This document shows, in pieces, positions 49,249 through 61,867 of a DNA stretch of 63,292 bases. Under the pieces are notes generated by a model. The model ran no database searches, was not told the DNA's origin, and saw nothing but the letters and a program-made list of their open reading frames with translations. Source of the stretch: an uncultured Prevotellaceae bacterium (GTDB taxonomy: Bacteria; Bacteroidota; Bacteroidia; Bacteroidales; Bacteroidaceae); contig CACXQL010000027.1 of the NCBI GenBank assembly GCA_902769805.1, forward strand, positions 1-63,292, written 5' to 3'. How positions within the stretch are numbered: position 1 is the stretch's first letter; every line of letters begins with the position of its first letter. A program made the position numbers and the translations under genes.

Positions 49249-49866
49249 ATGAACTTATTAAAATATTTTCCAAATTTATCAGAGGAGCAGCAACGACAGA
49301 TTGCTGCACTGGAAGATTTGTATCGCGATTGGAATGCGAAAATCAACGTCATTTCTCGCAAGGATATTGATAATCTCTACGAGCACCATGTGTTGCACTC
49401 GATGGCTATCGCAAAGATCATTCAATTCCGTGCAGGAACGAAAATACTCGACTTCGGCACAGGCGGCGGTTTTCCTGGTATTCCCCTTGCCATTCTCTTT
49501 CCTGAATGCACCTTTAAACTCATTGACGGTACTGGCAAGAAGATCCGCGTGGCTCAGGAGGTGTGCAATGCCATCGGACTGAAGAACTGTCATCCGGAAC
49601 ATCTGCGTGGCGAGGAGGAAAAAGGAAAGTATGACTTCATTGTCAGCCGTGCTGTCATGCCTCTTCCTGACCTGATGAAAATCGTCAGGAAGAATATCTC
49701 TAAAGAACAACATAACGCCTTACCCAATGGTGTGATTTGTCTGAAGGGCGGAGACTTACAAGCTGAGACATCTCCATATTGTAACATTGTAGAAATCAGC
49801 GCTATTAGCATGTTTTTCTCAGAGGAATGGTTTAAAGGGAAAAATATCATCTATCTGCCATGCTAA
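49249..49866 (+). CDS. rsmG: 16S rRNA (guanine(527)-N7)-methyltransferase
   Basis: A 205-residue SAM-dependent methyltransferase of the GidB fold that modifies 16S rRNA; loss gives low-level streptomycin resistance in other bacteria. Motif I is ILDFGTGGGFPGIPLAI near residue 65, and the N-terminal helix region has WNAKINVISRKDIDNLYEHH. The stop overlaps the next start by seven bases, so the MBL gene is coupled. Confidence 0.95.
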   Translation: MNLLKYFPNLSEEQQRQIAALEDLYRDWNAKINVISRKDIDNLYEHHVLHSMAIAKIIQFRAGTKILDFGTGGGFPGIPLAILFPECTFKLIDGTGKKIRVAQEVCNAIGLKNCHPEHLRGEEEKGKYDFIVSRAVMPLPDLMKIVRKNISKEQHNALPNGVICLKGGDLQAETSPYCNIVEISAISMFFSEEWFKGKNIIYLPC

Positions 49867-50501
49867 ACATTAAACGATTCATGTGTAACATGTTGCAGGA
49901 AAACTGCTACATTGTGAGCGACGAGACCAAGGAATGTGTCATCATCGACTGTGGAGCGTATTATCCAGAAGAACGCGATGCTATCAGTAACTATATCAAA
50001 GACAATGGACTGAAACCCGTTCATCTGTTGGCTACCCACGGACACCTTGACCACAACTGGGGCAATCATTCCATCTATGAGACGCTTGGCCTGAAAGTAG
50101 AGGCGATGAGTGAGGATGCGTTCCTGATAGAACACCTGAACCAACAAGGCTGTGACCTGTTTGGTATCCATCTGCAAGAAGGGGAAGCCCCTGTGGGACA
50201 TTATTTCACGAAAGACGAACAGATACACTTCGGCAGCCACACCTTTACCCTTCTGCATACACCAGGACATACACCAGGCTCCTGTACTTTTTATTGTGAA
50301 GAGGAGAAAGTAGCTTTCACTGGAGACACGCTTTTCAGAATGAGTATCGGACGAACAGACTTTGATGGTGGTAGTTGGCCTGACATGACAGAGAGTCTCA
50401 GGAAACTTGCCAAACTACCAGCAGAGACCGTTATTTACAGTGGGCACGGTCCGCAAACAACAATCGCGGAAGAGTTGCAGTATAATCCCTATTTAAGATG
50501 A
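49860..50501 (+). CDS. MBL-fold metallo-hydrolase (glyoxalase II-like)
   Basis: A 213-residue metallo-beta-lactamase-fold protein. The metal-binding motif is THGHLDHNWG near residue 59, followed by HTPGHTPGS, FTGDTLFRMSIGRTDF and SGHGPQTT. The layout is that of glyoxalase II-like hydrolases (thioester hydrolysis), though the precise substrate is not determinable. It is translationally coupled to rsmG and converges with the next gene, overlapping by 13 bases. Confidence 0.88.
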   Translation: MLNIKRFMCNMLQENCYIVSDETKECVIIDCGAYYPEERDAISNYIKDNGLKPVHLLATHGHLDHNWGNHSIYETLGLKVEAMSEDAFLIEHLNQQGCDLFGIHLQEGEAPVGHYFTKDEQIHFGSHTFTLLHTPGHTPGSCTFYCEEEKVAFTGDTLFRMSIGRTDFDGGSWPDMTESLRKLAKLPAETVIYSGHGPQTTIAEELQYNPYLR

Positions 50502-51574
50502 AGTTTGCGAATCCTGAGTTTATAACTCCCATTAAAGTCAATGCGCATCACCTTACAAACAGCATCCTCCACAGGAGAGATGGCGAGGGCTACATGTCCC
50601 ATGGTACGACGAAGATTGATTTCCACACATGGATGAAGTAAACAGTTCTCTCCTCTCTCTCCGCTTTTCATCACTATCATCATATCCACGCCAAATGGTC
50701 CACGATAGTTGCCTAACTGTATGGTATTACATATCTTCTCATTGACACAGTCGATTAAATCAATTGACACATAACGACTAAGCAGTTCACGCTTCACATA
50801 TTCTGTGGCAAGAATATTTCCTGTATAAGCCCCATTAGTGGTATGAAACAGAGAAAGACCAAGGTATCGGATGCCATTGTCTGTTGATTCAAACTCCATT
50901 CCGAAATCCTTTATTTTATAGTAATAAGGTTCTGCCATTACCCCACCCTGACTCTTCAGCAGGTTACGAATCCATCCACGATGATAATCATTCAGTTCTC
51001 CGTCGATAAAACGGATGCCACGACCGCTGGAACTCCAAGGAGCTTTCAACACCAACCGATGATATTCCTTTAACCGTTGTTCCACAGCCTCTATTGAATC
51101 GCAGAGAAAAGCCTCTCCTACTGTTCCTTCCATTTGTAAAAATGGTAACAGTTGTGCTGCTGTTCGGCGATGTGACAATTGGCGGATAGTGTCTAAATGT
51201 TCGTCAGAAGGAAGTATCGAAGGAGAAATCCCCTTTCTCACCAATTCTTGTTTGATGGCTTTATCCCACCCCCAAGGGTTGACATGCGTTATTCCAGGCG
51301 TTGGAATAAGTTGTTCCAAGCATTGGAACATGTTGTTCCAAGTCATGGAACAAGTTGTTCCAAGCATTGGAACTAATCGTTGTATTAGTCTTTTCCATGC
51401 TTTAGTGGCATATTCAACATTTTCAACCAATATAATATCTCCCTCTTGCGCCCACAAGGCAGGTAGAAAACCTAAATCAGCACGCAACTGTCGTCCGGCA
51501 TGGGGTGCCGTGAAGTTTGACAGGTTACTTGCCAAGGCAATGTCGTGTTCTGGATTGAAGATGTGCAATGTCAT
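50489..51574 (-). CDS. ATP-grasp-like protein of unknown function
   Basis: A 361-residue protein that begins MTLHIFNPEHDIALASN and has KAPWSSSGRGIRFI (about residue 195), a glycine-rich ATP-grasp-type loop, and EINLRRTMGHVAL near the C-terminus. The N-terminal lobe carries a run of about 30 residues encoded by four 22-bp palindromic repeats (LGTTCSMTWNNMFQCLEQ), which relatives would be expected to lack. The ATG at 51574 is chosen because an upstream in-frame ATG at 51586 lies on the -7 box. Function unknown; a ligase joining a carboxylate to an amine is the family default. Confidence 0.65.
   Translation of the reverse strand: MTLHIFNPEHDIALASNLSNFTAPHAGRQLRADLGFLPALWAQEGDIILVENVEYATKAWKRLIQRLVPMLGTTCSMTWNNMFQCLEQLIPTPGITHVNPWGWDKAIKQELVRKGISPSILPSDEHLDTIRQLSHRRTAAQLLPFLQMEGTVGEAFLCDSIEAVEQRLKEYHRLVLKAPWSSSGRGIRFIDGELNDYHRGWIRNLLKSQGGVMAEPYYYKIKDFGMEFESTDNGIRYLGLSLFHTTNGAYTGNILATEYVKRELLSRYVSIDLIDCVNEKICNTIQLGNYRGPFGVDMMIVMKSGERGENCLLHPCVEINLRRTMGHVALAISPVEDAVCKVMRIDFNGSYKLRIRKLHLK
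51290..51374. repeat. 22-bp palindromic tandem repeat inside the ATP-grasp-like gene
   Basis: Units begin at 51291, 51313, 51335 and 51357, period exactly 22. Each carries a palindrome such as GTTCCAAGCATTGGAAC. The end, GGAACTAATCGT, matches the intergenic copy at 18458-18540. Because 22 is not a multiple of three, successive units are read in different frames. Confidence 0.85.
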
Positions 51575-51583
51575 TTCAAATTG

Positions 51584-51614
51584 CAAAATTACGAAAATAT
51601 TTGCTTATTACAAA
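51584..51614 (-). promoter_or_regulatory. Promoter for the ATP-grasp-like gene
   Basis: On the minus strand TTTG at 51614-51611, a 19-nt spacer and TAATTTTG at 51591-51584. The ATG at 51574 begins about 9 bases after the -7 box, so the mRNA would have almost no leader. Confidence 0.75.
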
Positions 51615-51631
51615 AATAAAATGTAAATTTG
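51600..51631 (+). promoter_or_regulatory. Promoter of the signalling operon
   Basis: TTTG at 51600-51603, a 20-nt spacer and TAAATTTG at 51624-51631, 29 bases before the ATG. It interdigitates with the divergent promoter at 51584-51614. Confidence 0.8.
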
Positions 51632-51660
51632 CAGGCTAGTAACATATTATAATAATAAAA

Positions 51661-52830
51661 ATGAAACCAGTTAAGATTCTCAGCGTCGACGACGAGCAGG
51701 ACCTCGAGTTACTGTTGACACAATATTTCAGAAGGAAAATACGCAAAGGTGAATATGAGTTCTTTTTCGCCCATAACGGATTGGAGGCTTTAACCGTTCT
51801 CTTAAAAGAGAAGGATATAGATATCATTCTTTCTGATATCAATATGCCAGAGATGGATGGTCTGACTCTATTGACGAAAGTCAACGAGATGCGTAACCCT
51901 GCCTTGAAATGTATCATGGTATCCGCTTATGGTGATATGGGTAATATCCGTTCAGCGATGAACAATGGAGCCTTTGACTTTGCCACAAAGCCTATTGACC
52001 TTGATGACTTGAGTGTAACCATCGAGAAAGCCGTTGAGCAGATAGAGTATATCAAAAACAGTCAAAAGGAACATACCCAGTTGGAGTCTATCAAGAGTGA
52101 CCTTGCCGTAGCACGTGAGATACAACATGCCATCCTTCCACGTATCTTCCCTCCTTTCCCAGAGAATGAAGGAGTACTTGACTTGGCAGCACTTATGGAA
52201 CCTGCCAAGGATGTGGGAGGCGACTTCTACGATTTCTTCCGCCTGGATGAGGAACATATCGGACTGGTGATGGCTGATGTGAGTGGGAAAGGTATTCCTG
52301 CCGCTATCTTCATGGCTGTCAGCAGAACTTTGGTACGTACTGTCGGCATGCAAGGCTACAATCCAGAGGAAACACTACGGAAATCGAATGAACTGTTGGC
52401 AAGTGAATCGGTCGACTGTATGTTTGTCACGGTGTTCTACGCCATTTACAACATCAAGACTGGTAACATCCAATATTGTAATGGAGGACACAACTCTCCC
52501 TATATTCTACGAGCCAACGGTACTATAGAGCAGTTACCTGTCAGTCCAAACGGTATCGTTGGAGTCGTTGAGGGATTGGAATTTAAAGGTGCCGAAACTC
52601 ATCTGGACGCTGGAGACACCATTATTATGTATACCGATGGTGTCAACGAAGCCATCAACAGTCAAGAAGAAGAATATGGCGATGCCAGAATGGAAGAGAC
52701 GCTGAAGTCACTCAACGGGAAAACATGTCGTGAGGTGATTGACGGACAGCTGGCCTCTGTCAAGGCTTTTGCAGGTGAGGCAGAACAGAGTGACGATATA
52801 ACAATTATGGCAGTAAGGCGTAAAGCATGA
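51661..52830 (+). CDS. Receiver-SpoIIE (PP2C-type) phosphatase
   Basis: A 389-residue response regulator. The receiver domain (about 1-122) has DD at 10-11, the phosphoacceptor Asp59 in LSDINMPEMDG and the conserved Lys110 in ATKPIDL. A helical linker (125-155) joins it to a SpoIIE/RsbU-type phosphatase (about 160-388) with metal-binding Asp residues in GGDFYDF, MADVSGKG, MYTDGVNE and SDDITIM. By family knowledge, phosphorylation at Asp59 would switch phosphatase activity against a phosphoserine on an anti-sigma antagonist-type protein. No such target is encoded beside it. Its stop overlaps the next start (ATGA). Confidence 0.92.
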   Translation: MKPVKILSVDDEQDLELLLTQYFRRKIRKGEYEFFFAHNGLEALTVLLKEKDIDIILSDINMPEMDGLTLLTKVNEMRNPALKCIMVSAYGDMGNIRSAMNNGAFDFATKPIDLDDLSVTIEKAVEQIEYIKNSQKEHTQLESIKSDLAVAREIQHAILPRIFPPFPENEGVLDLAALMEPAKDVGGDFYDFFRLDEEHIGLVMADVSGKGIPAAIFMAVSRTLVRTVGMQGYNPEETLRKSNELLASESVDCMFVTVFYAIYNIKTGNIQYCNGGHNSPYILRANGTIEQLPVSPNGIVGVVEGLEFKGAETHLDAGDTIIMYTDGVNEAINSQEEEYGDARMEETLKSLNGKTCREVIDGQLASVKAFAGEAEQSDDITIMAVRRKA

Positions 52831-54395
52831 AAAAAGTCACTAAGATAGGAATTGCTGCCCTTGGCTGTTGTGCCCTTGCCCTTGTTGTTGGTATTGTATG
52901 GACAATGCATACAAGATATGAAAAGGAGCAAGTGAAAGTCAAAGAACTGGAGCAACAGCTTACCATCCTTTCCAAGAAAGAAAAGGAGTCTGCTGTTATG
53001 CAGAGCGTCAACGCACAGATGGAGGAGTTGGCAACCCAGCAGCGTATCATCAGTGAGGAACAGCGTGATGAAGCAGAACAACAAGCCCGCATTGCTAATG
53101 ATATGCGTCTGCATGCGGAACAGGAACGACAGAATGCCCAAGAGGCAGAGAAACGTGCCTTGGAAGCCTCAGAGGTGGCAAAAGGACAGCGTGTCATTGC
53201 AGAGAATCAGCGTGTCCAGGCAGAGTACGCAAAACGCGTGGCTGACACCTTGAGCATTCTGACGATGGCACGTAATCTCGGGAATATTGCCCTTACACAA
53301 GAAAGTGCAGGCAACAAAGACCTGGCATCACTTCTTGCCTATGCCTCCTATCTTTTCACCAAACGCTATCAGGGAGATGTCTATCACCCCTCTATCTATG
53401 AGGCTTTGACTAAGATCAGTGGGGGAAACCGCAGATGGGCTGTTGCACATGGTGCTATCATGAAGGCTCTCGGTATTCCTGGTTCAAATAGTTTCATGAC
53501 AATCAGCAAATACGGAGAAATACTGAAACATACCAAAGTAGGTGACAACTTACAGACAAAACCAATCTTCAGTGATAAGAACTACGATATAAGAGACATA
53601 TATATTAATAATGAGAGAACATATTATGCCGTCAGCAATACAGGTCATCTGATTGCCAGCAAGGAAAATGGAAAGACCCATATCGTTCTTATTGACGGTG
53701 CAGTCCGCCCTTTCAGAATCTATTCGTATGGTAATGAACTGGTAGTGACAGCAGAACAAAGTGTTCATGTCATAGACGCTACGACTTTACGTCCCATCAA
53801 GACACTCCCATTACAATTCAAGACCCAGATAGCAGGAAGGAAAGACGGACAGATCGTCCTGTTCGACCTGACAGGGAACATGTATATACTCAATAAAGAC
53901 TTCTCAAAAGTCACCCGTCAGAACCTTCCTTTCAAAGGACGCGTCACATCATATAACCATAATGCAAGTACCAACCAACAGGCTTATGGTATGTATGACG
54001 GCACAATCTATTATTTTGACCCGACGGGTAAGATGCACAAACTGATCGGTCATAACTCCCGTGTCACGAGAATCAATTATAACAAGAACAGACTCTATAC
54101 CTGCAGCTATGATGGTACTGTCAGATACTGGAATGTTATGAATGAGAAAGTTGATCCTATTACCATTCTAAACTTACGACAATGGATAGTCTGTCTTAGT
54201 TTTGACAAATCTAACCATTTTATCTGGACTGGTGACCAGAATGGCAACCTGACAGAGGCACTGATTGACATCCCTGACATGGCAAATAGATTGAAAAATA
54301 GTTTAAAGCGTAACCTTACGCGTGACGAATGGAACTATTATATCGGCAGGAGCATTCCATATGAAACCTTTATAGGAAAGGAGGCTAAACCATGA
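52827..54395 (+). CDS. Membrane-anchored coiled-coil protein with WD40-like propeller
   Basis: A 522-residue protein with one N-terminal membrane segment (about 6-28), a long Gln/Glu/Ala-rich coiled coil (about 30-150), a helical region (TMARNLGNIALTQESAGNKD, as in STAND-type proteins), and a C-terminal beta-propeller (about 205-500) with a WD40-like blade RLYTCSYDGTVRYWNV. The propeller faces the periplasm if the segment is a signal anchor with N-in topology. Its place between the phosphatase and the kinases suggests a scaffold or sensor for the system. Function not known. Its stop overlaps the kinase start by four bases. Confidence 0.72.
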   Translation: MKKVTKIGIAALGCCALALVVGIVWTMHTRYEKEQVKVKELEQQLTILSKKEKESAVMQSVNAQMEELATQQRIISEEQRDEAEQQARIANDMRLHAEQERQNAQEAEKRALEASEVAKGQRVIAENQRVQAEYAKRVADTLSILTMARNLGNIALTQESAGNKDLASLLAYASYLFTKRYQGDVYHPSIYEALTKISGGNRRWAVAHGAIMKALGIPGSNSFMTISKYGEILKHTKVGDNLQTKPIFSDKNYDIRDIYINNERTYYAVSNTGHLIASKENGKTHIVLIDGAVRPFRIYSYGNELVVTAEQSVHVIDATTLRPIKTLPLQFKTQIAGRKDGQIVLFDLTGNMYILNKDFSKVTRQNLPFKGRVTSYNHNASTNQQAYGMYDGTIYYFDPTGKMHKLIGHNSRVTRINYNKNRLYTCSYDGTVRYWNVMNEKVDPITILNLRQWIVCLSFDKSNHFIWTGDQNGNLTEALIDIPDMANRLKNSLKRNLTRDEWNYYIGRSIPYETFIGKEAKP

Positions 54396-57259
54396 GGCGA
54401 CTATTCTTTGCCATCTTCCTGTCTTTGTTTGCCTTGACGGATGTCACAGCTCAGGGCATACCCTTCTTCCAGAACTTCAATATGAAGCAATATGGAGGAC
54501 ATAAATACAATTTTGATATTACTGTTGATAAAGAAGGAGTCGTCTTTGTCGCTAATTTTGAGGGACTTCTCTATTATGACAATGCCGTGTGGCGCATCGT
54601 CCATACGAAAGGCATCTCTCGTATCACGTCTGTCTACCGAGACTCCAAAGGAAAGATATGGACAGGTGGCTATAACTATTTCGGATACGTCAAAGTCAAA
54701 GACGATAACGGAGAACTGGTTCTGAAGGAACAGGATGAACACCATGAGTTCAAAGGGGAAGTACAGCGTATCTGGGAGTCTAAGGGGGATATCTATTTCT
54801 CCTTAAGCAACGGAAATGTATATGTTGCAAGGGAGAACACCATCTACCAGGCAACACAAGCCAAAGAGCCTGCAGAGGACTTGTCCTCTCCCATACCAGG
54901 AATATCTGTCAGTCAGAAACTGGATATCGGTAACGGACTGACGGCTATTGCCACAAACGGAGATGGACTGTATATTGTCAAACAGGGTGGGAACATCATC
55001 TATCACATATCAGAGGATAACGGTCTGTGCTCTAACAACATCTATAACATTGCCTATAACGGACACGGGCATCTATGGGGAGCTACAGATAATGGTATCT
55101 TTGTGATGGCTGTACCGACATCCTATACCCACTATACTCAAGGAGACGGACTGCGCAATGAGGTATTGTCTATTGCCATGCTGAACGGAGTTGTCTATGC
55201 TGGCACTCTGGGTGGTGTCTATCGACAGACAGCACATACCTTTGAACAGATTAGCAAAATGACACATGCCTGTTATCAACTTGTCAACCAAAATGGAAGT
55301 TTGCTTGCTGCTACCTCAAATGGTGTCTACAGAATCAGTCCCAACGGAACAGCCTCCTCATTGTCAACAGCCAACACAATGGCAATCTTACCAGAAGATA
55401 ACGGCGTCTATTGTGGTGAGATGGATGGTGTCTATTTCTATGTTCCAGGAAAGACTCCCACAAAAGTATGCGATGCAGAGAAAGTCACCAAGATCATCAA
55501 AGACAAGAAAGGCATCATCTGGCTTCAGAATATCTATGGAAGAATATGGAATAACGAGAAAGGCTCGTTTAATATCCAGACGGAAAATGCAGAGAAAGAA
55601 GAGATGGCGACACTCGTCATGTATAACGGTCAACCAACTATGATTACCGCCAATACGACAGAGCCTTTCCCCTACCCCTTATTCTCCTATACTGACCAGA
55701 ACGGAATCCTTTGGTTGACAAATAATCAGGGTAAAGGACTATATGCCCTTCAGAATGGATCTAAAGATAATGAATGGAATAAGTTGGTATATCCTCTGAC
55801 TGACTATACCTTCCGCGCTCTGTTGCGTGACGGGAACAAAACATGGTTAGGCGGAACCAATGGCATCTATGTAATAGATACTTCCGTGAAGGACCCGACA
55901 AGGGATATCAAGCAGAAGGTGTTCTTCCGTTCTGTCATCATCAATGACGATAGTCTTGCCTGGGGCGGTTTTAATGAGTTGCCTAATAACCTGGTATTCA
56001 AAAGTGATGAGCGACTGATCAAAATCTGTTATTCAGCAGACTATCCTTCATTATTGATGCCAACCCAATACCGTTATCGTATCAACGGTGGCAGATGGAG
56101 CGGATGGGACTTCGATACGTTCACGGAGTATAACAACCAATCTTATGGCACCTATGTCTTTGAGGTACAGGCACGTGATGCCTTTGGTAATATCTCGGGA
56201 ACCATCAAGATGGTATTTGAGATAGAGGTACCTTTCTATTTAAAATGGTATATGCTGATACTCTATCTCCTTCTGTGTATATTACTTATCTACACTATCG
56301 TCCGATGGCGTCTTAATCGACTTAGGAAGGAGAAGATACGACTGGAGAACATCGTACAGAAGCGTACAGCTGAGGTTGTCAAACAGAAAGACGAGATTGA
56401 GGAGAAATCCAAGAGTCTTGAAAAAGCTCTGAATGACCTGGGCGAGGCTCAGCATGAACTGGTCAGACAAGAGAAAATGGCTACAGTGGGTAAGTTGACA
56501 CAGGGACTTATCGACCGTATCCTGAACCCCCTGAACTATATCAACAACTTCTCTAAGCTTTCGGAAGGACTCGTGAACGATGTCACATCCAATATCGAGG
56601 AAGAGAAGGAACACATGGAACCTGAGAACTACGAGGACACCATTGACGTACTCGGTATGCTGAAAGGTAATCTGGAGAAAGTCAGTGAGCATGGTGCCAA
56701 TACGACTCGGACCCTGAAAGCTATGGAGGAGATGTTGAAAGACCGTTCGGGCGGTATTGTGGACATGGATCTCATCGCATTAATCAGACAGAACGAGGAG
56801 ATGCTGGCTAAATATTTTGAAAAGGATATCTCTGAATACCATATCAAGACTGTATTCAACTACCCCGACACTACTGTTCATATCAACGGTAATGCAGAAC
56901 AACTGAGCAAGACATTTATGAGTCTGCTGGGTAATGCCGTATATGCTACTGTCAAGAAAGCTCAGCGTACACAATATGCCCCAGAGATAGACTTTACCAT
57001 CACTCCTAAAGACGACACTGTGGAGATTCTCATCAAGGATAACGGAATCGGTATCGAGGATACGATTATCAACAAGGTATTCGACCCCTTCTTTACCACC
57101 AAGACTACTGGCGAAGCCTCTGGTGTGGGACTCTATCTCAGTCGTGAAATCATCCAGAACTACGGAGGAGACATCTCCGTGACATCTCAGAAAAACGAAT
57201 ATACAGAATTTTCCATTATATTACCTATAAATAACGGCGGCTATGGAGAAACAAATTGA
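54392..57259 (+). CDS. Propeller-sensor histidine kinase with degenerate phosphoacceptor
   Basis: A 955-residue sensor: signal peptide (MRRLFFAIFLSLFALTDVTAQ), a two-component-regulator propeller (about 25-510), a Y_Y_Y domain (about 525-610), one membrane segment (about 614-637) and a coiled coil. The DHp domain reads GLIDRILNPLN where active kinases read GIAHEIQNPLN, so Asp708 replaces the phosphorylated His. The ATPase domain keeps its N-box (LLGNAVYA), G1 (IKDNGIGIED), F (PFFTTKT) and G2 (GVGLYLSRE) motifs. It can probably bind ATP and phosphorylate a partner's His. It is not the one-protein hybrid form, since no receiver or AraC domain is attached. Confidence 0.9.
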   Translation: MRRLFFAIFLSLFALTDVTAQGIPFFQNFNMKQYGGHKYNFDITVDKEGVVFVANFEGLLYYDNAVWRIVHTKGISRITSVYRDSKGKIWTGGYNYFGYVKVKDDNGELVLKEQDEHHEFKGEVQRIWESKGDIYFSLSNGNVYVARENTIYQATQAKEPAEDLSSPIPGISVSQKLDIGNGLTAIATNGDGLYIVKQGGNIIYHISEDNGLCSNNIYNIAYNGHGHLWGATDNGIFVMAVPTSYTHYTQGDGLRNEVLSIAMLNGVVYAGTLGGVYRQTAHTFEQISKMTHACYQLVNQNGSLLAATSNGVYRISPNGTASSLSTANTMAILPEDNGVYCGEMDGVYFYVPGKTPTKVCDAEKVTKIIKDKKGIIWLQNIYGRIWNNEKGSFNIQTENAEKEEMATLVMYNGQPTMITANTTEPFPYPLFSYTDQNGILWLTNNQGKGLYALQNGSKDNEWNKLVYPLTDYTFRALLRDGNKTWLGGTNGIYVIDTSVKDPTRDIKQKVFFRSVIINDDSLAWGGFNELPNNLVFKSDERLIKICYSADYPSLLMPTQYRYRINGGRWSGWDFDTFTEYNNQSYGTYVFEVQARDAFGNISGTIKMVFEIEVPFYLKWYMLILYLLLCILLIYTIVRWRLNRLRKEKIRLENIVQKRTAEVVKQKDEIEEKSKSLEKALNDLGEAQHELVRQEKMATVGKLTQGLIDRILNPLNYINNFSKLSEGLVNDVTSNIEEEKEHMEPENYEDTIDVLGMLKGNLEKVSEHGANTTRTLKAMEEMLKDRSGGIVDMDLIALIRQNEEMLAKYFEKDISEYHIKTVFNYPDTTVHINGNAEQLSKTFMSLLGNAVYATVKKAQRTQYAPEIDFTITPKDDTVEILIKDNGIGIEDTIINKVFDPFFTTKTTGEASGVGLYLSREIIQNYGGDISVTSQKNEYTEFSIILPINNGGYGETN

Positions 57260-58067
57260 TACATTACAACAGCAACTGAAGCAACAGGAGAAGCTGGCTT
57301 CTTTAGGAATGTTGAGTGCAGGTATTGCACATGAGATACAGAACCCGCTGAACTTCGTCATCAATTTCAGTAAGATGTCTGATAAGCTCTTGAAAGACCT
57401 GACTGAGATCGTGGAGGAAAACGAGGATAGCTTCCCTGAAGAAGACCGCGAGGAAGTAGAAGATATTGTGGCAGACCTGAAGGAGAATATGGCAAAGATC
57501 GTAGAGCATGGCGAGCGTGCCATCAGCATCATACAGGGTATCTTGCTCGTGTCAAGAGGCAAGGATAATGAATTCCTCCCTTCTGATGTTAGTCATATTG
57601 TCAAGGAATATGTATGGTTATCGTATCATGCCATGCGAGCCAACCACAAGAACTTCAACATCAGTATCCATGAAGAGTATCAGGAAGGACTGCCACAAGT
57701 CATGGTCATCCCTCAGGATCTGAGCCGTGCTGTACTGAACCTGATGAACAATGCCTGCTATACAGTATGGAAGAAAGCACAGAGTGCAGGAGAGGAATAC
57801 ACTCCCACTATCAGTGTCAAAGTGACAAGCACAGACGGAGAAATAACCATTGCCATCTCAGATAACGGAGAAGGTATGTCAGAAGAAGTAAAACAGAAGC
57901 TTTACGAGAATTTCTTCACCACCAAGCCTGCAGGACAAGGTACAGGACTGGGAATGGCTATTGTTAAGGATATTGTCGAGAATAAACATCACGGAACACT
58001 GGCTTTTGACTCCAAAGAAGGTCAGGGTACTACTTTTTATATCACCATTCCTATCAAGAAAGCATGA
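57243..58067 (+). CDS. Soluble histidine kinase with intact H-box
   Basis: A 274-residue cytosolic kinase with no membrane segment or sensor domain. A short coiled coil leads to the H-box GIAHEIQNPLN (His30). The ATPase domain has MNNACYTVWKKA, ISDNGEGMSE, FFTTKPAGQG and GTGLGMAIV. The DHp region resembles the preceding kinase over its whole length (for example KLASLGMLSAGI against KMATVGKLTQGL), which points to duplication. It overlaps that gene by 17 bases. I infer that the two kinases form a heterodimer in which the large one senses and this one supplies the His. Confidence 0.92.
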   Translation: MEKQIDTLQQQLKQQEKLASLGMLSAGIAHEIQNPLNFVINFSKMSDKLLKDLTEIVEENEDSFPEEDREEVEDIVADLKENMAKIVEHGERAISIIQGILLVSRGKDNEFLPSDVSHIVKEYVWLSYHAMRANHKNFNISIHEEYQEGLPQVMVIPQDLSRAVLNLMNNACYTVWKKAQSAGEEYTPTISVKVTSTDGEITIAISDNGEGMSEEVKQKLYENFFTTKPAGQGTGLGMAIVKDIVENKHHGTLAFDSKEGQGTTFYITIPIKKA

Positions 58068-60592
58068 GAAAGATATTCTTCACCATATTATTATTAGGAT
58101 GTGTCTATAGCACTTATGCACAGGAAGCCTATGAACAGTACCGCAGTATTTATGATAATGCGGAGGAAAACTATAATGTAGGCAGACTGGATGAGGCAGA
58201 AAAGGAACTGACAGACAACATCAGGAAGTTCCCCAGTAACCTCCGTCAGAGTGCTTACAGACTACTTGCGCTATGTAGTCTTGGTAATGACGATGAGGCA
58301 TTGGCAGAGGCGCGCACCCGTCTCTTGTTACAGGAGAACCCCTACTTCAGTACAAGTGCTAACGACCCCCAGCGGTTTATTGATATGGTGGAACGTATCA
58401 AGAAAGGCATTTCTGCTACCATCACGACGGCATCCAGTCAGGCTGAGAATCTTAACGAGGTGCCTGTGCCTACTACTCTTATTACAGAAGAGATGATTCG
58501 TAACTCCAGTGCCCGTAACTTGCAGGAACTGCTTGCCACCTATGTCCCTGGCATGACGATCGTTGATTGTAATGACGATATCAACATCTCCATGCATGGT
58601 ATCTATAGTAACGGACAGGAGAAGATCCTCATCATGCTTAACGGTCACCGACTGAACAGTTATTGTACGAACACTGCGGCTCCAGACTTCAGTATTGGAC
58701 TGGATAAACTAAAGCAGATTGAAGTACTGCGTGGACCAGCATCCTCACTCTATGGCGGTGTTGCACTGACGGCTGTCGTCAACCTTATTACCAAACAGGG
58801 AGCTGACATCGATGGTGTCAAAATACGTGCCGGTGTAGGAAACTACGGACAATTCCGGGGTGACTTGATGTTCGGAAAACGTTATTTCGACCTTGACATC
58901 CTGCTCTGGGGCAGCTTCCATCTCATTCGTGGTCAGAAGCGCTATCTTAGTAAAGAAGATACAGGACTGAATATCATGGGAGGTGATGTGAATGTCGGTG
59001 GCATCGGACCTAAGCCTTCCTACGATTTCGGAATGTCCATCAAATACAAGAACCTGCAATTTCTCTATAATACGCAGTATTCACAGGTGGAGTCGCCTCT
59101 GACGATGACACACTTGGCATCTACCTACGACGTGGGAAGATATAAAACATTCTATGGAACGCGCCCCAGTCACACTACCATTTCGCACCATGCTGACCTC
59201 AAATACGGACAGCAGTTCGGTAATGTCTATTTCATGGGACAAGTTGCCTATGACAATAGTGACCTCACTCACTATCAGGTTATATCCGATATCCCACTGC
59301 CTGGTTTTAAGGAATTACTTCCCCTACCAGAAACATCCCTTCAGCTATTGACTGATTCCACACAAGGTCTGGCTCGTTATATCAGTGGACAGGAACATAC
59401 CTTCGGTTCCAAGATACAAAGTTACTGGAACTATATTAACAACGGGAGACACAAAGGACTGTTAACCGTTGGTGCAGAATACAGTTTCTTCAAACTCGAC
59501 GACGCACGCTATGTCTTCGTATATGACTACATGAAGACCCTGCCAGAGACTATCAATATCTCAGAATTAGGTAAAGGTCATGAAAGTAATGCCAACATCT
59601 CCGTACAGTTGAAACACCAATGGGGACCTTTCATCCTGAATGCCGGACTGCGTTATGACTACAAGAACCGCTACGACGACACACATATTAGTGAGTTCTC
59701 ACCACGTGTCGCCCTTATCTTCCTGCAACCTAAATGGAATGTCAAACTTAGTTATGCCAAGTCATTCATCGACGCACCATATCTCTATCGAAAGACTAAT
59801 CAGTTCCTGATGGCGTTCCTTGGAGCAGAGGGATCCGACCAACTTTCCATCCCACTGACACCAGAGTCTTTGCACTCCTACCAGTTGACTTTCGGAGCCA
59901 CCCAATGGATTAAGGGTCTGGACTTCGAAGTGAACGCCTTCTATAACCATGCAAAAGACTTGATTATCATGGACCTGATTGCACACTATAATATGGAACA
60001 GTCAGACATCTACGGCATAGAACTCAGTAGCAAGTATGACTATCAACGCTTTTCTGCTCACTTCTCTGCCTGTTGGCAGAAAGCGAAATCGTTTTCCCAT
60101 AACAATATGTCATCATATGTTTATCCGACAGCATTGAACATGCCAGAAATCTCAACTAACCTAACATTTGCCTGGCGTACCACCGATCAACTTAAGTTGC
60201 ACACGCACCTTGCTTTCTGTAGCAAACAGATATCTGAGCATTTCGACATCATTAAATACGCAAAGTATAAAACAGCTATGACAAAACTGTCTGAGTTGTA
60301 CGCTCTCCTCAATACTTTTGAAGTTCCACCAGCTGAATTATTGGAAAAGTATAATGCCCTCAGACATTTTGTCAATGGTGAAGCCACTGGAGACAGATAC
60401 CTTTATAAAGACATCAAAGTAGACCCCTATTTCGTTGTCGATATAGGTGCATCCTATACAATAGGAAAGTTAGAACTGAATCTGAATATCAACAACCTGC
60501 TGAACAATAAATACTCTCTCAGCGGTGCCTGCACAGGACTGGTTCCCCAAAAGGGACGCTGGTTTATGTTCGACATTGCCTATAAGTTTTAA
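58064..60592 (+). CDS. TonB-dependent-receptor-like barrel with TPR-like N-terminus
   Basis: An 842-residue outer-membrane protein with a signal peptide (MRKIFFTILLLGCVYSTYAQ). Residues 20-105 look like a pair of TPR-type helices (EAEKELTDNIRKFPS, RLLALCSLGNDDEALAEART) in place of the usual carboxypeptidase-like domain. A plug domain follows (about 135-240: RNLQELLATYVPGMTI, QIEVLRGPASSLYGG) and then a barrel that ends FDIAYKF. No SusD partner is present. It overlaps the soluble kinase by four bases, which is an unusual mix of receptor and kinase genes. Possibly the receptor for the signal, or a regulated transporter. Confidence 0.85.
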   Translation: MRKIFFTILLLGCVYSTYAQEAYEQYRSIYDNAEENYNVGRLDEAEKELTDNIRKFPSNLRQSAYRLLALCSLGNDDEALAEARTRLLLQENPYFSTSANDPQRFIDMVERIKKGISATITTASSQAENLNEVPVPTTLITEEMIRNSSARNLQELLATYVPGMTIVDCNDDINISMHGIYSNGQEKILIMLNGHRLNSYCTNTAAPDFSIGLDKLKQIEVLRGPASSLYGGVALTAVVNLITKQGADIDGVKIRAGVGNYGQFRGDLMFGKRYFDLDILLWGSFHLIRGQKRYLSKEDTGLNIMGGDVNVGGIGPKPSYDFGMSIKYKNLQFLYNTQYSQVESPLTMTHLASTYDVGRYKTFYGTRPSHTTISHHADLKYGQQFGNVYFMGQVAYDNSDLTHYQVISDIPLPGFKELLPLPETSLQLLTDSTQGLARYISGQEHTFGSKIQSYWNYINNGRHKGLLTVGAEYSFFKLDDARYVFVYDYMKTLPETINISELGKGHESNANISVQLKHQWGPFILNAGLRYDYKNRYDDTHISEFSPRVALIFLQPKWNVKLSYAKSFIDAPYLYRKTNQFLMAFLGAEGSDQLSIPLTPESLHSYQLTFGATQWIKGLDFEVNAFYNHAKDLIIMDLIAHYNMEQSDIYGIELSSKYDYQRFSAHFSACWQKAKSFSHNNMSSYVYPTALNMPEISTNLTFAWRTTDQLKLHTHLAFCSKQISEHFDIIKYAKYKTAMTKLSELYALLNTFEVPPAELLEKYNALRHFVNGEATGDRYLYKDIKVDPYFVVDIGASYTIGKLELNLNINNLLNNKYSLSGACTGLVPQKGRWFMFDIAYKF

Positions 60593-60627
60593 AAAATACT
60601 ATTTTTAAAAGATTTTGCTATCTCTGC

Positions 60628-60658
60628 TTTGCATTCTGCAAAAAACTTAGTACCTTTG
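60628..60658 (+). promoter_or_regulatory. Promoter for the AAA ATPase gene
   Basis: TTTG at 60628-60631, a 19-nt spacer and TACCTTTG at 60651-60658; start codon 27 bases after. A weak AT-rich inverted repeat (AAAATA/TATTTT) at 60595-60608 may end the operon before it. Confidence 0.8.
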
Positions 60659-60685
60659 CATCTGTTTTAAAACATTATTCATATA

Positions 60686-61867
60686 ATGGAAGCTTTTTTC
60701 CGCACGCACCGGTACTTGGTTGAGCATGTCAAAGCCCCTGTTCGTCGCACCCTCATGGATGAGATTAACTGGAGTGACCGTATGATAGGTATCAAGGGTA
60801 CCCGTGGCGTAGGGAAAACGACATTTCTATTACAATATGCAAAAGAGCATTTTGATGTCCAGGACAAGCAGTGCCTCTACATCAACATGAACAATTTCTA
60901 CTTTCAGGAACGCGGTATAGCCGACTTTGCAGGAGAGTTCTACTACAAAGGCGGTCGCGTGTTATTGATTGACCAGGTTTTCAAACAGCCGGACTGGTCA
61001 AAGGAGCTTCGCCGATGTTATGACGAGCATCCAGGACTGAAGATTGTTTTCACTGGTTCCAGTGTGATGCGCCTGAAAGAAGAGAATCCTGAATTGAATG
61101 GTATCGTAAAGAGTTACAACCTGCGTGGCTTCTCTTTCCGTGAGTTTATTAACCTGAAGACAGGATATAACTTACGACCATATTCTCTTGATGAAATACT
61201 CCATGACCATGAGAACATCATTAAGCACATTCTTCCTAAAGTAACCCCCAGCAGATATTTCCAGGATTATATCCATCATGGCTTCTATCCTTTCTTCCAG
61301 GAAGACCGTAATTACAGCGAGAACCTGTTGAAGACGATGAACATGATGACTGAGGTGGATATCCTGTTGATTAAGCAGATAGAACTGAAATATCTCACCA
61401 GGATCAAGAAGTTGTTCTATCAACTGGCAGAAGGAGGTCCCAAGGCTCCTAATGTCAGTAAGCTTGCCAAACAAATCGGAACAAGTCGTGCCACTGTGAT
61501 GAACTATATCAAATACCTCACGGATGCCCGTCTGTTAAATATGATATACCCTGTTGGCGAGGACTTCCCCAAGAAACCTGCCAAGGTGATGCTTCATAAT
61601 TCCAACCTGCTATATGCCATCTATCCTATCCATGTGGAGAAGCAGACAGCCATGGAGACATTCTTTGTCAATTCGTTATGGAAAGACCATAAGGTTAATC
61701 AGGGAGAGCGCAACACCTATATTGTGGACGACAAACTCAGATTCCGTATCTGTGATGCAGATGCCCATAAGATGAGATATACACAGGATACGATATATGC
61801 AAGATACAATACAGAGATTGGTAAGGATAACCAAATCCCGCTATGGTTGCTGGGATTCCTGTACTAA
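60686..61867 (+). CDS. AAA ATPase of the AAA_14/DUF4143 type
   Basis: A 393-residue cytosolic protein. Walker A is GTRGVGKTTFL near residue 37, and Walker B is RVLLIDQVFKQ, where the usual catalytic D-E pair is D-Q. Sensor IVFTGSSVMRL follows, then NLRGFSFREF, typical of the AAA_14 family. A winged-helix-like part (VSKLAKQIGTSRATVMNYIK) and a DUF4143-like C-terminus end it. Such ATPases are common and mostly uncharacterised. It stands alone with its own promoter. Confidence 0.85.
   Translation: MEAFFRTHRYLVEHVKAPVRRTLMDEINWSDRMIGIKGTRGVGKTTFLLQYAKEHFDVQDKQCLYINMNNFYFQERGIADFAGEFYYKGGRVLLIDQVFKQPDWSKELRRCYDEHPGLKIVFTGSSVMRLKEENPELNGIVKSYNLRGFSFREFINLKTGYNLRPYSLDEILHDHENIIKHILPKVTPSRYFQDYIHHGFYPFFQEDRNYSENLLKTMNMMTEVDILLIKQIELKYLTRIKKLFYQLAEGGPKAPNVSKLAKQIGTSRATVMNYIKYLTDARLLNMIYPVGEDFPKKPAKVMLHNSNLLYAIYPIHVEKQTAMETFFVNSLWKDHKVNQGERNTYIVDDKLRFRICDADAHKMRYTQDTIYARYNTEIGKDNQIPLWLLGFLY

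Follow-up and report, generated by a model that had tools for sequence, protein, structure and literature searches.

The operon at positions 51661-60592 of a 63,292-nucleotide stretch of DNA (the window) from an uncultured Prevotellaceae bacterium (contig CACXQL010000027.1) encodes a response regulator (RR) with a SpoIIE phosphatase domain, a WD40 propeller protein, a membrane sensor pseudokinase (PSK), a soluble histidine kinase (HK) and a TonB-dependent receptor (TBDR). Comparison with related loci identified the operon as a real, conserved and patchily distributed signalling module. The module probably carries out TBDR-coupled two-component signalling, with a SpoIIE partner switch as its end point and ligand cassettes that can be exchanged. 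Gene set, gene order, motif states, conservation pattern, the presence of a nonribosomal peptide synthetase (NRPS) gene in some relatives and the joint replacement of TBDR and NRPS could be read from the aligned sequences.

A first-pass annotation of the window had taken the five genes to be one unit from their overlaps of 4, 4, 17 and 4 bases. Indeed, the five open reading frames (ORFs), all on the + strand, gave the same overlaps; one promoter-like site was found ahead of the operon, and an exact-match scan returned none inside it on either strand. The predicted co-occurrence of the genes in relatives was also seen. The WD40 protein, HK and RR each picked the same 11 of 151 genomes of the family (HK in 6 of 30 genera), not counting one weak WD40 match (1.6e-4, with stops) and two RR matches of 40-41% identity that covered only residues 126-388. 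Leaving out the window's own genome, RR, WD40, PSK and HK were together in all ten others and TBDR in nine. Within the genus, HK was present in 104 of 299 genomes.

Seventy-three loci (designated L) were compared: 60 from 59 own-genus genomes, picked by contig position, ten family loci, and L023, L034 and L038. L037 was left out because it shares a contig with L142. All five genes were found in 65 of the 73, a figure that gauges the intactness of the module rather than its frequency, since the loci were chosen by matches to the module itself; the automatic count was 64, and L171 was added because its HK was hidden by an overlapping ORF call. Five of the eight incomplete loci (L023, L038, L125, L134 and L170) were cut by contig ends, and the other three were L013 (no adjacent TBDR), L034 (no WD40 or TBDR) and L151 (no RR or WD40). 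The genes of L022 lie in two divergent blocks. A profile search of genome contigs with the PSK alignment yielded two true relatives, L037 and L038, among the 80 matches listed, the other 78 (22-31% identity) being unused, and a phylum-wide search recovered mainly the general kinase family. Across the order, 28 of 295 genomes matched RR at E 1e-100 or better; of the 26 other than the window's genome and G495, nine were fetched. One of these loci, L184, belongs to another family and carried all five genes together with RsbW and STAS genes. The operon is so far undescribed in the open-access literature searched, as the first-pass annotation had supposed: no description of this five-gene set was found in full text there, a collection from which most subscription papers are absent. 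Three observations go beyond that annotation, namely the NRPS cassette in relatives, a second module copy in the window's genome, and RsbW/STAS neighbours.

The two kinases differed at the phospho-acceptor site. In Pfam scans, which covered eight proteins (49860-61864) at E values up to 0.1, HK matched HisKA (1e-6) and HATPase_c (1.8e-24); PSK matched Reg_prop (6.1e-7) and HATPase_c (5e-20), with a sub-threshold Y_Y_Y match (0.0042) and no HisKA match. Joint alignment set AHEIQNP of HK against IDRILNP of PSK, with the phospho-acceptor histidine (His30; CAT, 57330-57332) replaced by Asp708 and the next residue, Glu, by Arg709 (56513-56518). The Asp-Arg signature was present in 72 of 72 PSK proteins that span the site, the window's included (the PSK of L023 is cut by the contig end), and in four further pseudokinases of L184-L186, and His-Glu was present in 72 of 72 soluble HKs. 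PSK is thus homologous to HK across the dimerization and histidine phosphotransfer (DHp) domain and has lost the phospho-acceptor histidine throughout the family, which bears out and sharpens the earlier call of a pseudokinase. The same annotation had both kinases passing phosphate to Asp59 of RR. That route fails for PSK, which is without a phospho-acceptor histidine, and is left to the soluble HK as the only one able to carry phosphate on a histidine; PSK could do no more than bind ATP and serve as the sensing member of the pair. In a separate observation, L185 (11122-13395) carried two tandem pseudokinases, both with Asp-Arg, ahead of one live kinase.

The ATP-binding site of PSK was retained. 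Of the boxes that we take to be N, G1, F and G2, all were kept, with the N-box Asn in 73 of 73, the G1 Asp in 72 of 72 and its Asn in 70 of 72. Mean pairwise identity was 72% for the live DHp domain, 71% for the PSK DHp domain and 52% for the PSK ATP domain. That the DHp domain of PSK is as conserved as the live one and that the ATP-site motifs are kept argue that PSK has been selected as a partner. A DHp domain without the phospho-acceptor histidine acts on a live kinase in DivL, and PSK resembles DivL-type pseudo histidine kinases in this respect; it differs from them in its Asp-Arg signature, its fixed adjacency to a soluble DHp homologue and its periplasmic propeller input. The pair, in which the dead partner is marked by one signature, offers a clean case of split histidine kinases. 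Whether PSK activates its partner is a separate matter: it might instead do no more than inhibit the soluble HK or act as its phosphatase, an option that we place on the unlikely side. An allosteric brake would fit the combination of Asp-Arg in place of His-Glu with an ATP site that is intact; the sequence does not fix the sign of control, and no specific point counts against a brake.

The response regulator matched the receiver (4.7e-22) and SpoIIE (2.4e-49) families. Its Asp59 (GAT, 51835-51837) was kept in 70 of 70 aligned relatives, the window included, so that both residues of a two-component phosphotransfer pair, His30 of HK and Asp59 of RR, are present and invariant. In the SpoIIE domain, which is of the PP2C type, the motifs GGD, ADVSGKG, TDG and SDD, to which metal-site roles are assigned in the SpoIIE/RsbU phosphatases of partner switching, kept each acidic position in 68-70 of 70. 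Mean pairwise identity was 86% for the receiver and 58% for SpoIIE, compared with 38% for the PSK propeller and 37% for the WD40 propeller; within TBDR it was 43% for the N-terminal TPR-like domain, 64% for the plug with linker and 33% for the barrel. The module is frozen on the inside (receiver, 86%) and variable on the outside (propellers and barrel, 33-38%).

The WD40 protein matched WD40 (1.4e-7) behind a transmembrane segment (TM) and a coil, both read by eye; the signal peptides of PSK and TBDR were assigned by eye as well. A structure model (three sequences) gave a helix over residues 8-160 and 28 strands, which would suffice for a seven-bladed propeller, and its top fold matches were WD40 domains; the mean predicted local distance difference test score (pLDDT) was 71.9, being low over the first 80 residues and below 50 for residues 1-27. 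From its length, the helix may span far across the periplasm. In a distant locus, L192, the homologue of this protein follows a single TM and makes up the C-terminal half of an nSTAND1 nucleoside triphosphatase (NTPase). The nSTAND NTPase is cytosolic and lies ahead of the single TM in L192, and therefore the WD40 part should be periplasmic. The operon's protein resembles nSTAND-WD40 proteins in its homologous TM, coiled coil and WD40 half, but is without the NTPase half. The envelope-spanning layout of the first-pass annotation was judged reasonable.

TBDR matched Plug (1.6e-15) and TonB barrel (2.4e-25) families. Its N-terminal domain was called TPR-like: TPR_2 matched 14 of 39 TBDR N-termini (best E value of any TPR model, 1.1e-5), and the window's N-terminus matched only BTAD, which is helical-repeat-like, at 0.0037. 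When 63 loci were compared pair by pair, identity in the TPR-like domain tracked that of the WD40 propeller (rho 0.75) and the PSK propeller (0.75) more closely than that of its own plug (0.30) and barrel (0.52), and plug and barrel tracked each other (0.67). Controlling for the SpoIIE and HK ATP domains lowered the values to 0.38 (WD40 propeller) and 0.37 (PSK propeller), and to 0.25 each for plug and barrel. A sliding identity window placed an approximate exchange point at the boundary between the TPR-like domain and the plug: against the TBDR of L127, identity was mostly 20-67% before residues 113-121 and about 80-100% from there over most of the plug. TBDR would then be a receptor whose signalling and ligand halves recombine apart. 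As a further observation on the receptor, the operon of L140 (10315 to about 15250) carried a pair of unlike TBDR genes, each from its own receptor class.

An NRPS ORF was found in the operon at 24 of 73 loci: at 14 it follows TBDR, at six it separates HK from TBDR, and the others are L022, L023, L125 and L134. L023 is the second copy in the window's genome (contig C60, 339-10850), cut by the contig end, with the order PSK (cut), kinase, 1792-aa NRPS, TBDR and AAA ATPase. Seven of the 24 NRPS ORFs were scanned for domains: adenylation and carrier domains were present in all seven, condensation in five and thioesterase in one, that of C60; no tailoring domain was matched in these seven. On quick trees, NRPS presence required 5 changes on the TBDR tree and 6 on that of HK, compared with 11 for WD40, 12 for RR and 13 for PSK; shuffles gave about 18.

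Two natural allele pairs indicate by alignment that TBDR and NRPS were replaced jointly, the other four genes staying. Between L138 and L141, RR (98% identical), WD40 (95%), PSK (95%) and HK (93%) were nearly unchanged, compared with 41% for TBDR and 29% for NRPS, and DNA similarity dropped at the HK/TBDR junction and returned six bases past the L138 NRPS stop. Between L135 and L137 the respective values were 84, 85, 85 and 93%, with TBDR at 50% and NRPS at 26% and the order of TBDR and NRPS flipped. The converse was found for L137/L149 (TBDR 100%, NRPS 99%; WD40 73%, PSK 72%) and L130/L135 (TBDR 79%, NRPS 83%; WD40 38%, PSK 52%).

RsbW and/or STAS genes lay within the fetched stretch at seven of the 73 loci (L015, L016, L034, L133, L162, L168 and L152, the last at a distance of 5.9 kb). 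Among 11 distant loci with a receiver-SpoIIE gene, STAS was present in nine and RsbW in seven. The window's genome held such genes in trans: two RsbW-like domains in SpoIIE proteins on contig C14, one on C7, and STAS on both. Given RsbW/STAS genes beside the module in some relatives and elsewhere in the window's genome, the most likely output is a partner switch through STAS, which would act in trans here. The module resembles the receiver-SpoIIE partner switches HsbR (PA3346/PA3347) and RsbU-RsbV-RsbW in its fusion of a receiver to SpoIIE and in the STAS and RsbW genes near it in some relatives; it differs in its outer-membrane receptor and pseudokinase/kinase input, and the window's copy is without adjacent partner genes. 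For PA3346/PA3347, the comparison follows PMC8256260. On C14 (L182, 11825-13228), a STAS gene was also seen three bases 5′ of a gene with a RelA/SpoT domain and downstream of two Cache-HAMP-SpoIIE-RsbW proteins, a possible case of partner-switch control of an alarmone enzyme.

The following mechanism is proposed. TBDR would capture a ligand, and its TPR-like periplasmic domain would hand the signal to a pair of propeller proteins in the inner membrane, PSK and the WD40 protein, the latter held on its long helix. Through its His-less DHp domain, PSK would pair with the soluble HK, bring it to the membrane and switch it. HK would hold phosphate on His30 and transfer it to Asp59 of RR, whose phosphatase would dephosphorylate an RsbV-like STAS protein and flip an RsbW-type partner switch. 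At NRPS-bearing loci, about one third of those examined, the NRPS would make the cognate ligand of TBDR, so that plug-barrel and NRPS together would be a ligand cassette open to exchange, while the signalling chassis that bears it is conserved. All protein contacts, the direction of phosphate flow, the identity of the ligand and the STAS target are those that we infer.

Several findings weigh against this mechanism. The support is sequence comparison. The correlation between the TPR-like domain and the upstream genes could arise partly from DNA linkage to them, and a structure model of TBDR (two sequences; pLDDT 29.7) did not resolve the fold. No RsbW or STAS gene lay within the fetched stretch at 66 of 73 loci, or in the window. 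NRPS was absent from 46 of 70 scored loci, the window's copy included; none of the 31 rows of the window's TBDR clade was scored with NRPS, so the cassette idea does not supply the ligand of this copy. In favour of matched cassettes, among the 20 NRPS loci with all parts, barrels were at least 56% identical in 14 of 14 NRPS-similar pairs and in 0 of 176 others, a separation not given by the WD40 and PSK propellers. The cut-offs behind this split, however, were chosen with the data in view, and the pairs are non-independent. Ranked over all 190 pairs, NRPS similarity had a correlation of nil with barrel similarity (rho 0.05, p 0.28) and of 0.10 with that of the whole TBDR (p 0.12); a cruder measure gave 0.28 (p 0.004). 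Finally, L151 was without RR and WD40, L013 without an adjacent TBDR, and L034, L185 and L186 without TBDR and WD40, so not every part is required everywhere.

A rival reading is regulated uptake: TBDR would import a nutrient chelate (of iron or another metal, haem, or cobalamin-like), with the NRPS making a simple metallophore as cargo and the kinases only tuning expression. Among solved structures, the plug region came closest to colicin I/siderophore, BtuB and haem receptors, and likewise in NCBIfam, all far below cut-off, and in siderophore systems too receptor and synthetase travel together. We consider uptake unlikely, however, as the signalling genes are constant and the NRPS optional (24 of 73 loci), as the TPR-like domain tracks the sensor propellers, and as no siderophore tailoring genes were recognised beside the NRPS, where neighbours are partly annotated. 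Still less probable, and improbable in our judgement, is a shared promoter for separate pathways, in which the kinases and RR answer a periplasmic ligand of PSK itself and TBDR and NRPS are regulated outputs, as might be suggested by the kinase pair and RR-SpoIIE of L034, L185 and L186, which occur without TBDR and WD40, and by hybrid two-component systems, where a propeller sensor can bind ligand alone, but against which stand L192, where a WD40 protein (the nSTAND fusion) and TBDR recur beside a kinase and RR-SpoIIE without a pseudokinase, and the co-variation of the TPR-like domain with both propellers after SpoIIE and HK correction.

The proposed TBDR-coupled signalling resembles known systems in part. 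In the cell-surface signalling of FecA-FecR-FecI and FpvA-FpvR-PvdS, a TBDR with an extra N-terminal periplasmic domain relays its occupancy to an inner-membrane protein; with pyoverdine, the ligand is an NRPS product of the cell itself. The module differs in having a TPR-like domain for STN, PSK and the WD40 protein for a FecR-type anti-sigma factor, and an RR phosphatase for an extracytoplasmic function (ECF) sigma factor. No STN domain was matched on TBDR (barrel, plug and the weak BTAD only), and no FecR-type anti-sigma or ECF sigma gene was present in the operon or scanned flanks. The hybrid two-component systems of Bacteroides unite Reg_prop, Y_Y_Y, histidine kinase, receiver and AraC parts in one chain. 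PSK shares with them the union of a membrane kinase with a Reg_prop propeller in the periplasm and a Y_Y_Y-like domain; here, in contrast, the histidine is lost, the chain ends after HATPase_c with no HisKA, receiver or helix-turn-helix match in Pfam, the live kinase and RR are separate, and there is no SusC/D pair. No SusD-type match was found among the operon genes and scanned neighbours, and TBDR stands alone. Membership of the SusCD/hybrid-kinase class was rejected on this domain content, in agreement with the first-pass annotation, which had set the operon apart from that design.

The distant loci suggest how the module may have arisen. Like L034, L185 and L186 carried one or more pseudokinases without a propeller, a soluble HK and RR, and had neither TBDR nor WD40. 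One full-length kinase with its histidine lay beside RR-SpoIIE in L187, L188, L189, L191, L035 and L036. L192 (2904-12069) encoded a TBDR, an nSTAND1-TM-coil-WD40 protein, a soluble kinase with its histidine, RR-SpoIIE and STAS, and no pseudokinase; this arrangement is likely to be an ancestor-like form. By this comparison, it is plausible that one kinase split into dead and live halves, which were joined by a TBDR and a WD40 protein that had lost its NTPase.

A wider proposal is possible, though we hold it at less than even weight. In Prevotella-group bacteria the module may be a case of polymorphic chemical recognition, in which the chassis takes matched TBDR and NRPS cassettes by recombination, and lineages switch self-made peptide signals or, like the window's operon, only listen; the TPR-like domain with WD40 and PSK would be a third route to the cytoplasm beside sigma/anti-sigma pairs and hybrid kinases. 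Rumen and gut Bacteroidaceae carry many NRPS clusters without known products. For some of these NRPSs, the module supplies a candidate receptor together with a complete signal route, and the match between receptor and product is testable by simple exchange. By antiSMASH, 934 NRPS clusters were counted in 8,160 rumen genomes, and Prevotella NRPS belonged to the clusters differentially expressed with feed efficiency (PMC8241843).

Features of the operon and its borders. Coordinates are positions in the window.
Feature	Coordinates	Strand	Basis
Promoter-like site of Bacteroidetes type before the operon, TTTG-N20-TAAATTTG	51600..51631	+	motif scan
RR, 389 aa: receiver (Asp59) and SpoIIE/PP2C-type serine phosphatase	51661..52830	+	ORF, Pfam, alignment
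WD40 propeller protein, 522 aa: predicted inner-membrane anchor and long helix, no enzyme domain	52827..54395	+	ORF, Pfam, structure model
PSK, 955 aa: signal peptide, periplasmic propeller, Y_Y_Y-like domain, TM, coil, His-less DHp, intact ATP-binding domain	54392..57259	+	ORF, Pfam, alignment
HK, 274 aa: soluble; DHp with His30 and ATP-binding domain, no sensor or TM	57243..58067	+	
TBDR, 842 aa: signal peptide, then TPR-like domain (residues ~20-115), plug and a barrel of the 22-strand type	58064..60592	+	ORF, Pfam
Approximate exchange point in the TBDR gene, TPR-like domain/plug boundary (residues ~113-121)	58400..58426	+	sliding identity window against L127 and three other pairs
Promoter-like site of the following gene (AAA_14 ATPase, 60686-61867), marking the operon end	60628..60658	+	

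Promoter-like sites were scanned as exact matches to TTTG-N19..21-TAnnTTTG, which we take to be the Bacteroidetes-type consensus. There were 15 matches in the window, compared with 0.48 expected, and across 1-63292 they were mainly intergenic as judged by eye. The AAA_14 gene was considered as a sixth member of the operon and rejected, having its own promoter-like site; it was a fixed neighbour in 22 of 73 loci. On the other side, a divergent gene (50489-51586, - strand) encodes a 365-aa protein without a family above cut-off, which neighbours the module in 24 of 73 loci and adjoins RR in 16. These two fixed neighbours indicate that the module occupies one chromosomal site in part of the genus.

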